DNA from: Candidatus Bathyarchaeota archaeon
GTDB taxonomy: Archaea > Thermoproteota > Bathyarchaeia > 40CM-2-53-6
NCBI GenBank assembly: GCA_005888755.1
Contig: VBBQ01000023.1
Coordinates: 1 to 14,778 of the forward strand
Direction: 5' to 3'
DNA: 14,778 bases
Shown: positions 1 through 14,778 of the stretch, one piece after another
How positions within the stretch are numbered: position 1 is the stretch's first letter
How the letters are laid out: each line of letters starts with the position of its first letter
Notes under the pieces: model-generated
What the model was told of the DNA's origin: nothing
The model's input: only the letters and a program-made list of their open reading frames with translations
Database searches by the model: none
Translations under genes and position numbers: made by a program

Positions 1-190
1 AGAACGCGGCCAGGAACCTGGCTGCGGGAGGGCTGAGGTTCAGCCCCAGCGGGCCTCCAGGTGAAGCAATGGTAGAGGAACGGGAACCGGAGAACGCGAC
101 CCTAATCCTCAAAGTTGATGGAGGCAAGTTAAGTCGATAAGCCACAACGACAATCCATCTGATGAAGACTTAACAGAACCCCTAAATCGT
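1..190 (+). ncRNA. Structured non-coding RNA, 3' part; possibly RNase P RNA
   Basis: No reading frame here looks like a protein, but the strand folds well. Visible elements are a hairpin at 5-26 (CGCGGCCA paired with TGGCTGCG), a perfect 7-bp hairpin at 30-46 (GGGCTGA/TCAGCCC, loop GGT), a small hairpin at 81-90, and two interleaved helices: 117-122 with 154-159 (GATGGA/TCCATC) and 128-135 with 167-174 (GTTAAGTC/GACTTAAC). Together these last two make a pseudoknot. The order of short motifs (GGTGAA at 60-65, GGTAGAGG at 71-78, GGAGGCAAGT at 120-129, GATGAA and ACAGAACCC near 161-181) resembles the 3' half of RNase P RNA. The P4-forming GGCTTA expected after ACAGAACCC is missing, so the identification is tentative. 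The 5' part lies outside the window. The 3' end is probably between 185 and 220, where TTTT precedes the tRNA; the two RNAs may be co-transcribed. SRP RNA was considered and does not fit. Confidence 0.45.
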
Positions 191-248
191 AATCTACTCG
201 GACGTGGTTTGCGTGTTTTCGGTCTGGGCCGGTAGTTCAGCCTGGTTA

Positions 249-269
249 GGAGCATTGACTCTCCGGATA
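249..269 (+). other. Probable D-loop intron of tRNA-Val
   Basis: About 21 bases interrupt the D arm between GGTTA and GAAC. Repeated bases at the junctions leave the boundary free to slide between 247-267 and 250-270. The insert can form a hairpin of GGAG (249-252) with CTCC (261-264). A bulge-helix-bulge built on that hairpin would instead predict a 19-base intron at 248-266. The alternative D stem, GTTC with GAGC (250-253), contains a G-T pair and would move the insertion to 254-274. Confidence 0.6.
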
Positions 270-292
270 GAACGTCCGCCTTACACGCGGAA

Positions 293-313
293 ACCCTCAC
301 GTGGGGGCCGTAG
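293..313 (+). other. Probable variable-region intron of tRNA-Val
   Basis: The bases between the anticodon stem (ending at 291) and the T stem (starting at 318) number 26 instead of 5. Keeping A292 and GGTC (314-317) restores the usual archaeal AGGTC variable loop and defines a 21-base insert. Inside it CCC (294-296) can pair with the G run at 303-307. ACCCT (293-297) is also perfectly complementary to AGGGT (312-316), so the insert can be closed by a 5-bp stem. The exact junction may differ by a base or two. Confidence 0.55.
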
Positions 314-357
314 GGTCGGGAGTTCAAATCTCCCCCGGCCCACCAGACTATCTTTGG

Positions 358-4277: not shown

Positions 4278-4292
4278 TTGTGGCCCCCATCA

Positions 4293-4304
4293 CCTATATG
4301 GGTA
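4293..4304 (-). promoter_or_regulatory. TATA-type promoter element, TACCCATATAGG
   Basis: Read on the minus strand the sequence is TACCCATATAGG with a TATA-like core, 16 to 27 bases upstream of ATG 4277. The same 12 bases recur at 12015-12026 before another gene. The core is nearly symmetrical, so it could also start TFB transcription on the plus strand near 4324, leaving a leader of about 75 bases. Confidence 0.45.
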
Positions 4305-4388
4305 CAGTTGGCGGGCACTTCCACGGTCTCACCGGAAAAGGATAACCAGCTTACCCCAGACAGGACCCCGCAGACTACGTATCCCGCG

Positions 4389-4394
4389 GGAGGG
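4389..4394 (+). promoter_or_regulatory. Ribosome binding site choosing the TFB start
   Basis: GGAGGG lies six bases before ATG 4401 and three before GTG 4398. It supports a start there rather than at the far-upstream TTG 4278, which would add 41 residues before the zinc ribbon. Confidence 0.65.
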
Positions 4395-4400
4395 TCCGTG

Positions 4401-5342
4401 ATGAGCCGGAGGAAGACCAGACCCCGAGACGAGGTGGGACACTATGTCTGCCCTAACTGTGGCAGCCCAAGCTTAGTCCGAGACGCTGAGACTGGCGAAG
4501 TCATATGCACCAACTGTGGATTCGTTCTATCAGATCCTACTGAACAGTACGCGGCACCAGTACCCAGGCGAACCGAGGAAGGACTCCTTGAGAGCCAATC
4601 AGGACCTCCAGGAAGATTTTCGGCTTTTGACAAGAACCTCTCCACTATCATTTCCAGAGCGCAGGCTTCCAACCGGTCGCTCAGCGCCGACGAGCGGCTA
4701 CAGCTCTGGCGGCTCCGAAGAACACAACTCCGCGCATCTGCGGGATCATCAACCGCTAGAAATCTGTCCAGAGCAATGAGCCAACTCCGAGGATTGGCCG
4801 GACGACTGAACCTACCAGAAGTTGTCACGGAACGAGCAGCATTGATGTACCGAAGAGCCCTCAACAAAGGCCTCGTCCGAGGCCGACCGATAAACGGAAT
4901 GGTTGCAGCTTCGACCTACGCGGCGTGTCGATTGACCGACGTGCCTCGCTCTTTGAGTGAAATCGCAAAAGCCTCAGGAATGAGCAGAAAGCTTCTCGCC
5001 CATTACTACCGAGCCCTGGTCCGATCTCTGGATGTCACCATGGCAATTGAAGATCCACTGAAACGAGTCTCGAAAATCGCATCTCGAGCAGGAGCAGACT
5101 CCCCAACAGAGATGCTTGCAGGGAAGATTCTACGAGAGGCCATCAGACTGAGGGTTAACGTCGGAAAGGACCCGGACGGTTTGGCAGCTGCGGCACTCGA
5201 TCTGGCAGCAAGAATACGAGGATCAATGGTTATGCAGAGAGACCTCGCAAAGGCCGCAGGCGTCTCCGAGGTAACTATTCGGAGCAGGATGAGGGATCTG
5301 AAGGCAGCGGCGAAATCTCTCGGCCTCCCCGATGTCGCGTAG
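4401..5342 (+). CDS. tfb: Transcription initiation factor IIB (TFB)
   Basis: This 313-residue protein is the archaeal counterpart of eukaryotic TFIIB. It binds the TBP-TATA complex and recruits RNA polymerase. The N-terminal zinc ribbon has CPNC (17-20) and CTNC (36-39). The B-reader/linker follows, with SAFDKNLST corresponding to the usual HDKGLST. Two cyclin-like repeats follow, the first with the typical AASTYAACR, the second with GKDPDGLAAAALDLAAR. The C-terminal helix-turn-helix (AKAAGVSEVTIRSRMRDL) is the BRE-recognition region. All four zinc ligands are intact, so the protein looks functional. Archaea often hold several TFB paralogues; whether this is the main one cannot be told. The start at ATG 4401 gives the usual family length. 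Confidence 0.95.
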   Translation: MSRRKTRPRDEVGHYVCPNCGSPSLVRDAETGEVICTNCGFVLSDPTEQYAAPVPRRTEEGLLESQSGPPGRFSAFDKNLSTIISRAQASNRSLSADERLQLWRLRRTQLRASAGSSTARNLSRAMSQLRGLAGRLNLPEVVTERAALMYRRALNKGLVRGRPINGMVAASTYAACRLTDVPRSLSEIAKASGMSRKLLAHYYRALVRSLDVTMAIEDPLKRVSKIASRAGADSPTEMLAGKILREAIRLRVNVGKDPDGLAAAALDLAARIRGSMVMQRDLAKAAGVSEVTIRSRMRDLKAAAKSLGLPDVA

Positions 5343-12046: not shown

Positions 12047-12496
12047 GTGTCCATCGGTAGGATTCGTCTCAAGAGCCCTTCATCCCACAAAACGACCGTC
12101 GGCTCGCCAAAGGTGGCCGCGAGGAAAGATCGCTTTCTCGTACAGGAGCATCATGCCCGGCGACTACATTGGGACTTTCGATTGGAACTTGACGGTGTCC
12201 TGAAGAGCTGGGCTGTTCCTAAGGGTCCACCCATTGAACCGGGTATCAAACGACTCGCGGTCCAAGTTGAGGATCATCCTCTCAGCTATTATGGTTTCGA
12301 GGGAACTATTCCAGAAGGCGGGTATGGCGCGGGCGAGGTAGAGGTCTGGGACAAAGGATTCTACATCTTAGAAGTCAGGGAGCCGCGGAAGTACCATGTT
12401 CTTTTGAAAGGGCGGAAGCTGAAGGGAGACTATCGTTTGATCAATTTCAAGGACAAGAACTGGCTGATGTACAAGGTAGCTGATGACCAAGGTTAG
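12047..12496 (+). CDS. Stand-alone LigD-type DNA 3'-phosphoesterase
   Basis: This 149-residue protein is a free-standing version of the 3'-phosphoesterase domain found at the N-terminus of bacterial LigD, which trims 3'-phosphates and 3'-ribonucleotides from DNA ends during break repair. The segment EHHARRLHWDFRLELDG (34-50) contains His35, His41, Asp43 and Arg45, and VEDHPLSYYGFEG (74-86) contains His77. Their spacing equals that of His42, His48, Asp50, Arg52 and His84 of Pseudomonas LigD, shifted by seven, so the manganese site looks intact. No ligase, polymerase or Ku gene is in this window. The start is GTG 12047, matching the transcription start predicted from the TATA box; no ATG or GTG lies further in before the domain. 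It overlaps the AhpD-like gene tail-to-tail by four bases. Confidence 0.9.
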   Translation: MSIGRIRLKSPSSHKTTVGSPKVAARKDRFLVQEHHARRLHWDFRLELDGVLKSWAVPKGPPIEPGIKRLAVQVEDHPLSYYGFEGTIPEGGYGAGEVEVWDKGFYILEVREPRKYHVLLKGRKLKGDYRLINFKDKNWLMYKVADDQG

Positions 12497-13708: not shown

Positions 13709-14458
13709 CTATTTTCCGCCTCCTCGTGGCATTAGAAGTGATTTCAGAGCGTTTGTAGCTCCGAGGATCTTTGTCTTCTGAATCGCAAGCATGGGATCAA
13801 CGCCCTTCGGGCACACAACACTACATTCTCCCACTAGGGTGCATTCCCAGACCCCTTCGATTTCATGCACAATTGGAAACCGTGCATCCTTGCCTTGGTC
13901 TCTGGAATCCTTGATGTATCTGTACGCAAGAGCGGTAGCAGCGGGACCCAAGAATTTCTCGTTGAGCCCGTAGACGGGACAGGCGGAGTAGCAGAGCATG
14001 CAGTTGATACATGAGGAGAATTGCTGGTAACGTTCCAATTCCTCTGCACTCTGACGGTATTCACCCTCTTCTGGCGGAGACTCTTTGTCACGTATTATCC
14101 AGGGTTTGATCTCGACCAGTTTGTGCATGAAGTCGTCCATGTTGACGACTAGATCTTTGATGACTGGAAAGTGTGGTAGGGGCTCCACCTTGATCGTCCG
14201 ACCTTTGAACTCGTGGAGAAAGCTGGCACATGTGAGTTTTGGGACTCCGTCTACGCTCGCTCCGCAGCTTCCGCAGACCCCCATCCTGCATGACCAGCGA
14301 TAGGTCAGCGTCCCGTCTAGATTCGCCTTGATGTAGTTGAGTGCGTCAAGAACAACCATATCCTTTCGGTAAGGCACTTTGTAATCTTGGAAGAACGGCT
14401 CTCCATCTTTCTCGGGTCGATACCGGGTTACCCTGACGGTTGCGACATCTTGGCTCAT
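13709..14458 (-). CDS. frdB: Fumarate reductase iron-sulfur subunit B
   Basis: This 249-residue electron-transfer subunit has all cluster cysteines in place. The N-terminal ferredoxin domain holds Cys57, Cys62, Cys65 and Cys77 for [2Fe-2S]. The C-terminal domain has CINCMLC (150-156) plus Cys216 for [4Fe-4S], and Cys160, Cys206 and Cys212 for [3Fe-4S]. These positions equal the E. coli FrdB ligands shifted by two. GLNEKFLGPAA (164-174), SRDQGK and the ending LLMPR also match E. coli FrdB. It relays electrons between quinol in FrdCD and the FrdA flavin. I start it at ATG 14458, which shares one base with the frdA TGA stop (TGATG); a longer frame opens with TTG 14485 inside frdA and adds nine residues. 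Reversal as succinate dehydrogenase is possible. Confidence 0.93.
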   Translation of the reverse strand: MSQDVATVRVTRYRPEKDGEPFFQDYKVPYRKDMVVLDALNYIKANLDGTLTYRWSCRMGVCGSCGASVDGVPKLTCASFLHEFKGRTIKVEPLPHFPVIKDLVVNMDDFMHKLVEIKPWIIRDKESPPEEGEYRQSAEELERYQQFSSCINCMLCYSACPVYGLNEKFLGPAATALAYRYIKDSRDQGKDARFPIVHEIEGVWECTLVGECSVVCPKGVDPMLAIQKTKILGATNALKSLLMPRGGGK

Positions 14459-14778
14459 CAGTAGACGCGGGCCTCCGGTTTCCAACGCGTAATAGTCACC
14501 GGCATCGTGTCTATCCTTGGAACGGTTCCAGTCTCATAGACCACCAAATGCTTGAGGAATTGATCATCGTCACGTTTTGGATAGTCTGTTCGGGAGTGTG
14601 CGCCTCTCGATTCCTTTCGTGCTAGCGCAGCGTAGGGAATAGTCTCGGCGACGTCAAGCATGAAGTCCAGCTCTAGGGCGGAGACTAGGTCAGTGTTGTA
14701 GACCCGGTCCTTGTCTTCAACGACGGCGTTTTTCATTCTCTGTTTCAAGTCTCCGATCAGTCTACAAGCCTGTTTGAG
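14458..14778 (-). CDS. frdA: Fumarate reductase flavoprotein subunit A (C-terminal part)
   Basis: The gene runs off the right edge of the window, so only the last 106 residues are visible and the start is outside. The frame is open to the edge. The fragment has the family hallmark ESRGAHSRTDYPKRDDDQF followed by LKH, from the C-terminal helical domain of FrdA/SdhA, including Arg residues that lie near the dicarboxylate site. The ending ITRWKPEARVY matches the E. coli FrdA segment ITTLPPAKRVY, but stops there and lacks the long hydrophilic tail of the E. coli protein. FrdA carries covalent FAD and reduces fumarate to succinate; the flavin-binding region is not in view. The TGA stop overlaps the frdB start by one base. 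Confidence 0.92.
   Translation of the reverse strand, partial: LKQACRLIGDLKQRMKNAVVEDKDRVYNTDLVSALELDFMLDVAETIPYAALARKESRGAHSRTDYPKRDDDQFLKHLVVYETGTVPRIDTMPVTITRWKPEARVY

Follow-up and report, generated by a model that had tools for sequence, protein, structure and literature searches.

The window analysed here, by which we mean the whole stretch of 14,778 nt, is contig C22 of a draft bathyarchaeal genome (G000; 2.0 Mb, 95% complete, 48 contigs) and carries a gene for tRNA-Val(UAC) with two inserts of 21 nt each. We take the host to live in soil at moderate temperature, judging from the 20-40 cm depths in the record titles of its closest named relatives, MAGs called 'Candidatus Bathyarchaeota archaeon BA_x', and from general knowledge. 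Neither ARAGORN nor Rfam at its gathering threshold calls a tRNA in the window, so that the gene is missed by ordinary annotation; the one hit of a permissive Rfam search, a tmRNA match over the T arm and acceptor, was rejected as spurious. The features of the gene, all on the forward strand, are as follows.

226..345, + strand: tRNA-Val(UAC) gene; precursor of 120 nt, encoded CCA included
226..247, + strand: exon 1; acceptor 5' strand, U8 and A9, D-stem 5' strand, D loop up to U20a
248..268, + strand: intron 1, 21 nt, AGGAGCATTGACTCTCCGGAT; D loop, position 20a/21; placed by uninterrupted orthologues and by a parser using bulge-helix-bulge (BHB) motifs only
269..292, + strand: exon 2; A21, D-stem 3' strand, whole anticodon arm, A44
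282-284, + strand: anticodon UAC, within exon 2
293..313, + strand: intron 2, 21 nt, ACCCTCACGTGGGGGCCGTAG; variable region, position 44/45; placed by orthologues and by the BHB-only parser
314..345, + strand: exon 3; remaining variable region, T arm, acceptor 3' strand, discriminator A, CCA (343-345)

With both inserts removed the predicted mature tRNA is 75 nt plus CCA, and all its stems are perfectly paired (acceptor, 7 bp; D, 4 bp; anticodon, 5 bp; T, 5 bp). Spliced in silico it reads GGGCCGG UA GUUC AGCCUGGUUA GAAC G UCCGC CUUACAC GCGGA AGGUC GGGAG UUCAAAU CUCCC CCGGCCC A CCA. About 45 nt upstream of the gene, CCTAAATCGTAATCTAC (181..197, + strand) is kept with few changes in the orthologues of the family and is a possible promoter element. 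Elsewhere in the window, Pfam domains identify a TFB-type transcription factor (4278-5342) and a stand-alone LigD 3'-phosphoesterase domain (12047-12496), and we read the Pfam domains of a third gene (13709-14485) as those of a succinate-dehydrogenase-type iron-sulphur subunit.

Orthologues and insert boundaries

An orthologue search with the gene as query finds both inserts in 16 genomes of the same family, namely 15 of one genus (the genome analysed here included) and one, G062, of another genus; the genes are 112-122 nt in total length. In five genomes from other families of the same order (G013, G014, G015, G020 and G055) the same tRNA is uninterrupted, at 77-78 nt with CCA, and since the exons match, the insert boundaries are exact (U20a/A21 and A44/G45). 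In a sixth genome, G018, the tRNA bearing the UAC anticodon arm is likewise uninterrupted; its parse, in which the ends were wrongly set, was left out of the boundary comparison. Moreover, a parser using only the BHB and the cloverleaf, with no orthologue information, recovers the same two introns in the window gene. In 15 of the 16 genomes with both introns it arrives at the mature tRNA that is expected, the exception being G062, where it misplaces the D-loop intron. The sequence-only reading had proposed two short introns at non-canonical sites, about 21 extra bases in the D loop and as many in the variable region, an uninterrupted anticodon loop and a mature form of 75 bases; all of this agrees with the parse given above, in which the anticodon arm lies complete within exon 2.

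Across the 16 genomes the exons are near-invariant, whereas the inserts have diverged and yet retain their BHB pairs. That the two inserts recur at the same sites with different sequences in so many genomes makes an artefact of assembly or binning a reading to which we give practically no credence, even though the named relatives are themselves draft metagenome assemblies. The same conservation, together with intact stems and the encoded CCA, bears out the earlier view that the gene is alive, and makes it extremely improbable that we are dealing with a decayed pseudogene whose decoding has passed to another, intact tRNA-Val(UAC). Such a copy could lie in the roughly 5% of the genome that is missing from the 48 contigs; however, the exons are not relaxed, no stem is broken, and the search for a second Val(UAC) gene that the sequence-only reading had advised found none among the tRNA genes recovered by targeted searches of the 95%-complete assembly. 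Single copies of Val CAC, GAC and UAC are, in addition, the expected archaeal set.

The variable-region insert occurs alone, at 16 nt, in a genome of another family (G052, locus L253), and on the strength of this one genome the variable-region intron may have arisen before the D-loop intron; loss of the latter, or an independent gain, would explain the pattern equally well.

BHB motifs and the splicing endonuclease

The two motifs, again on the forward strand, are laid out as follows.

242..266, + strand: BHB of intron 1; central helix 242-245/263-266, inner helix 249-252/259-262 (minimum-energy fold)
285..316, + strand: BHB of intron 2; outer helix 285-286/315-316, central helix 287-290/308-311, inner helix 294-298/303-307

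Both inserts are almost certainly BHB introns, judging by their pairing and conservation: each has a 4-bp central helix with 3-nt bulges at the splice sites, and removal of both leaves a canonical tRNA with the layout of the uninterrupted orthologues. Relaxed forms of the motif, HBh' or hBH, may be without the outer or the inner helix. In intron 1 the predicted fold has a central helix CUGG/CCGG, bulges UU^A and AU^A and an inner helix GGAG/CUCU, and this BHB is already present in the minimum-energy fold of the precursor; since the inner helix is present and the D stem sits outside, beyond a 3x3 internal loop, intron 1 is HBh'-like. Intron 2 has both inner and outer helices and forms a full hBHBh', with outer AC/GU, central GCGG/CCGU and inner CCCUC/GGGGG helices and bulges AA^A and AG^G. 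The earlier impression that the gene has no obvious strict bulge-helix-bulge is therefore not upheld. In the intron-2 motif the 3' strand of the anticodon stem is paired with the intron, so that motif and stem are mutually exclusive; when the motif is forced, the predicted fold of the window gene lies 4.2 kcal/mol above the free fold, and in all orthologues folded the motif lies 1.2-6.9 kcal/mol above the minimum-energy fold.

In the alignment of the 16 orthologues, 93.2% of the cells at BHB pairs are paired, compared with 42-53% when the partner strand is slid. For the two central helices the figure is 98.4% (16 genomes); each contains one G-U pair in the window gene, and mismatches occur in the variable-region central helix of G008 (one) and in the central helix of the D-loop BHB of G062. 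In the inner helices, 9 cells have changed on both sides, compared with a mean of 3.2 in shuffles (16 orthologues). Central-helix pairs vary on one side only (U-G to C-G, G-U to G-C), and covariation there is for this reason suggestive, not strong. Finally, with the exons held fixed, 0.09% of the shuffled versions of either insert formed a complete central helix (4/4) together with an inner helix of 4 bp or more at the exact site; since both real inserts pass, chance is a poor explanation of the motifs.

The genome encodes two members of the tRNA-intron endonuclease family, which answers the earlier suggestion to establish the subunit type. The alpha subunit (C46:22713, 189 aa) has Aeropyrum pernix EndA as its best PDB match (3p1z, E 4e-42) and carries Y126, H134 and K165 at the catalytic triad positions, H134 aligning with the position occupied by A in 3ajv; the beta subunit (C32:2972, 176 aa) is without the triad. 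In addition, alpha K42 aligns to K44 of the A. pernix enzyme, which lies in a Crenarchaea-specific loop whose lysine is required for broad specificity (PMC6379350). These genes point to an endonuclease of (alpha-beta)2 layout, in which the subunits would assemble as a heterotetramer, and this type cuts relaxed BHB sites (PMC4090602, PMC6379350); at gene level, the genome thus has one of the two forms ((alpha-beta)2 or epsilon2) fit for such sites. Considering that the BHBs are present and that the alpha-beta enzyme has the broad-specificity lysine, the gene does not stretch the known range of the endonuclease, contrary to what the sequence-only reading had suggested.

tRNA introns elsewhere in the genome and in its class

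Targeted searches, an incomplete census, recovered at least 41 tRNA genes in this genome, 16 of which reach the Rfam cut-off. Thirty-nine of them, at loci within L001-L030 and L150-L163, were run through the BHB parser, for which tRNAs of G040, from the same class, served as references; 37 proved to be interrupted, only Arg(GCG) and Leu(CAG) being free of introns. In G040 itself the parser gives 45 tRNAs, of which 37 are uninterrupted and the other 8 hold 9 introns. The intron count for our genome is 85 by the parser and 70 by spliced alignment, a range that arises because some single introns come out of the parser as nested pairs and spliced alignment merges neighbours; gene-by-gene reconciliation by hand gives about 77, or about two per gene, and is uncertain for several genes (Trp, Asp, Ser-GGA and Lys-CUU). 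The sites include the D loop, the variable region, the anticodon stem and loop, position 8/9 and the T arm.

The gene for tRNA-Phe(GAA) (C4:90838-91006; L026:1419-1587) has four predicted introns, at 8/9, in the D loop, at 37/38 and in the variable region. Its 8/9 intron (26 nt) is precisely absent in the congeners G005, G006 and G007, G013 lacks the D-loop intron, and the tRNA-Phe of G040 has none of the four. Two tRNA-Gly genes, L018 (C13:88461) and L163 (C39:35382), share a similar 26-nt intron in the T arm at 53/54, hinting at copying or common descent. These two are the only introns clearly alike, and near-identical introns in non-homologous tRNAs, the transposed type of Thermoproteales, were not seen; likewise, a search for copies of the window introns, such as transposition would leave, gave none that is convincing among the other parsed introns of the genome. 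Directly upstream of tRNA-Leu UAG, locus L014 (about 1329-1496) holds an apparent tRNA-Glu of 165 nt, which likely has one intron within its T loop and further introns around the anticodon.

As a proxy for intron load we counted recognisable tRNAs in 121 genomes of the class, using strict filters and few scored candidates per genome. The count per genome is 10-18 in this family, mostly 15-27 in the remaining families of the order (8 in one fragmented genome) and mostly 25-38 in the rest of the class. Since recognisable tRNAs are fewest in this family, intron load seems to peak there.

Proposed processing and comparison with known systems

On the evidence of the gene, its orthologues and the enzyme genes, we are highly confident that this is a functional gene whose two BHB introns would be cut by the alpha-beta endonuclease and whose exons would be ligated into tRNA-Val(UAC). 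The locus would be transcribed as a 120-nt precursor; the endonuclease would cleave both motifs after the second base of each 3-nt bulge, and a ligase would link the three exons into the 75-nt tRNA plus CCA, which would then presumably be aminoacylated. As to the order of events, we infer from the predicted folds that intron 1 may be offered on the folded precursor, with the D stem still paired, and that intron 2 may be offered only once GCGG, the 3' strand of the anticodon stem, swaps to the CCGU of the intron, at a predicted cost of about 4 kcal/mol.

Instead, the inserts might stay in the mature molecule as extra hairpins of the D loop and variable region, in which case the tRNA would be larger than usual and still functional. 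In favour of this, the minimum-energy fold of the precursor does hold the full cloverleaf with added hairpins; however, the inserts are missing in sister families with matching exons, and across lengths of 16 to 24 nt it is the splice-site pairing and the bulges that are kept, with no constant arm. Considering also that such insertions occur genome-wide at many sites, 8/9 and 53/54 among them, and that the splicing enzyme carries the broad-specificity loop, we regard retention as highly unlikely and favour splicing.

The closest parallels known lie in Thermoproteales (Pyrobaculum; Sugahara et al., 2007, 2008, as cited in PMC4090602 and PMC8450103), which, as far as these accounts describe them, share BHB or relaxed-BHB introns at non-canonical sites, including the D loop and the variable region, several introns per gene and an alpha-beta endonuclease (PMC4090602, PMC8450103). 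Those archaea are hyperthermophilic, in contrast to the soil Bathyarchaeia considered here. The highest published load that we found is that of Pyrobaculum calidifontis, whose 46 genes hold 71 introns, at most three in any one gene (PMC8450103). Its mean is 1.54 introns per gene against about two here, and the published maximum of three compares with four in our tRNA-Phe. Within the limits of a draft genome, home-made parsers and the open-access literature, the intron density of this genome thus appears to be above the highest that we found for archaea in published work. We found no report of tRNA introns in Bathyarchaeia or of four-intron archaeal tRNAs in the open-access literature, most subscription papers lying outside this scope.

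The statement that multiple non-canonical introns are documented mainly in Thermoproteales holds for that group and has to be widened, since they also occur in Thaumarchaeota (PMC8450103) and Caldiarchaeum (PMC3293823), and the present host is a bathyarchaeon. In Caldiarchaeum subterraneum, tRNA-Thr(GGU) has one D-arm and one variable-region intron, as here, at 24/25 and 45/46 (the D-loop intron of our gene being at 20a/21), and presence or absence likewise varies between close relatives; in contrast, just 13 of its 45 tRNA genes are interrupted (PMC3293823), compared with the 37 of 39 parsed here, and no split fragment was seen here. Thaumarchaeota, too, have non-canonical BHB introns outside Thermoproteales, and these were the training data for the second intron model in tRNAscan-SE 2.0; introns per genome are far fewer there (107 non-canonical over all genomes analysed; PMC8450103).

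Taken alone, tRNA-Val(UAC) is one further two-intron archaeal tRNA; it is the genome context that is remarkable. The intron-2 site, which needs an opened anticodon stem, poses a question of folding order for pre-tRNA splicing, and the presence of 0, 1 or 2 introns in this tRNA among relatives allows the gain and loss of introns to be traced directly, in a clade where standard tRNA finding misses most genes. We consider it probable, from the genomes compared, that this family of soil Bathyarchaeia is the most tRNA-intron-dense lineage described, with nearly all genes interrupted, a mean of about two introns and up to four, and gain and loss ongoing between congeners. If so, the proliferation of tRNA introns would be uncoupled from hyperthermophily.
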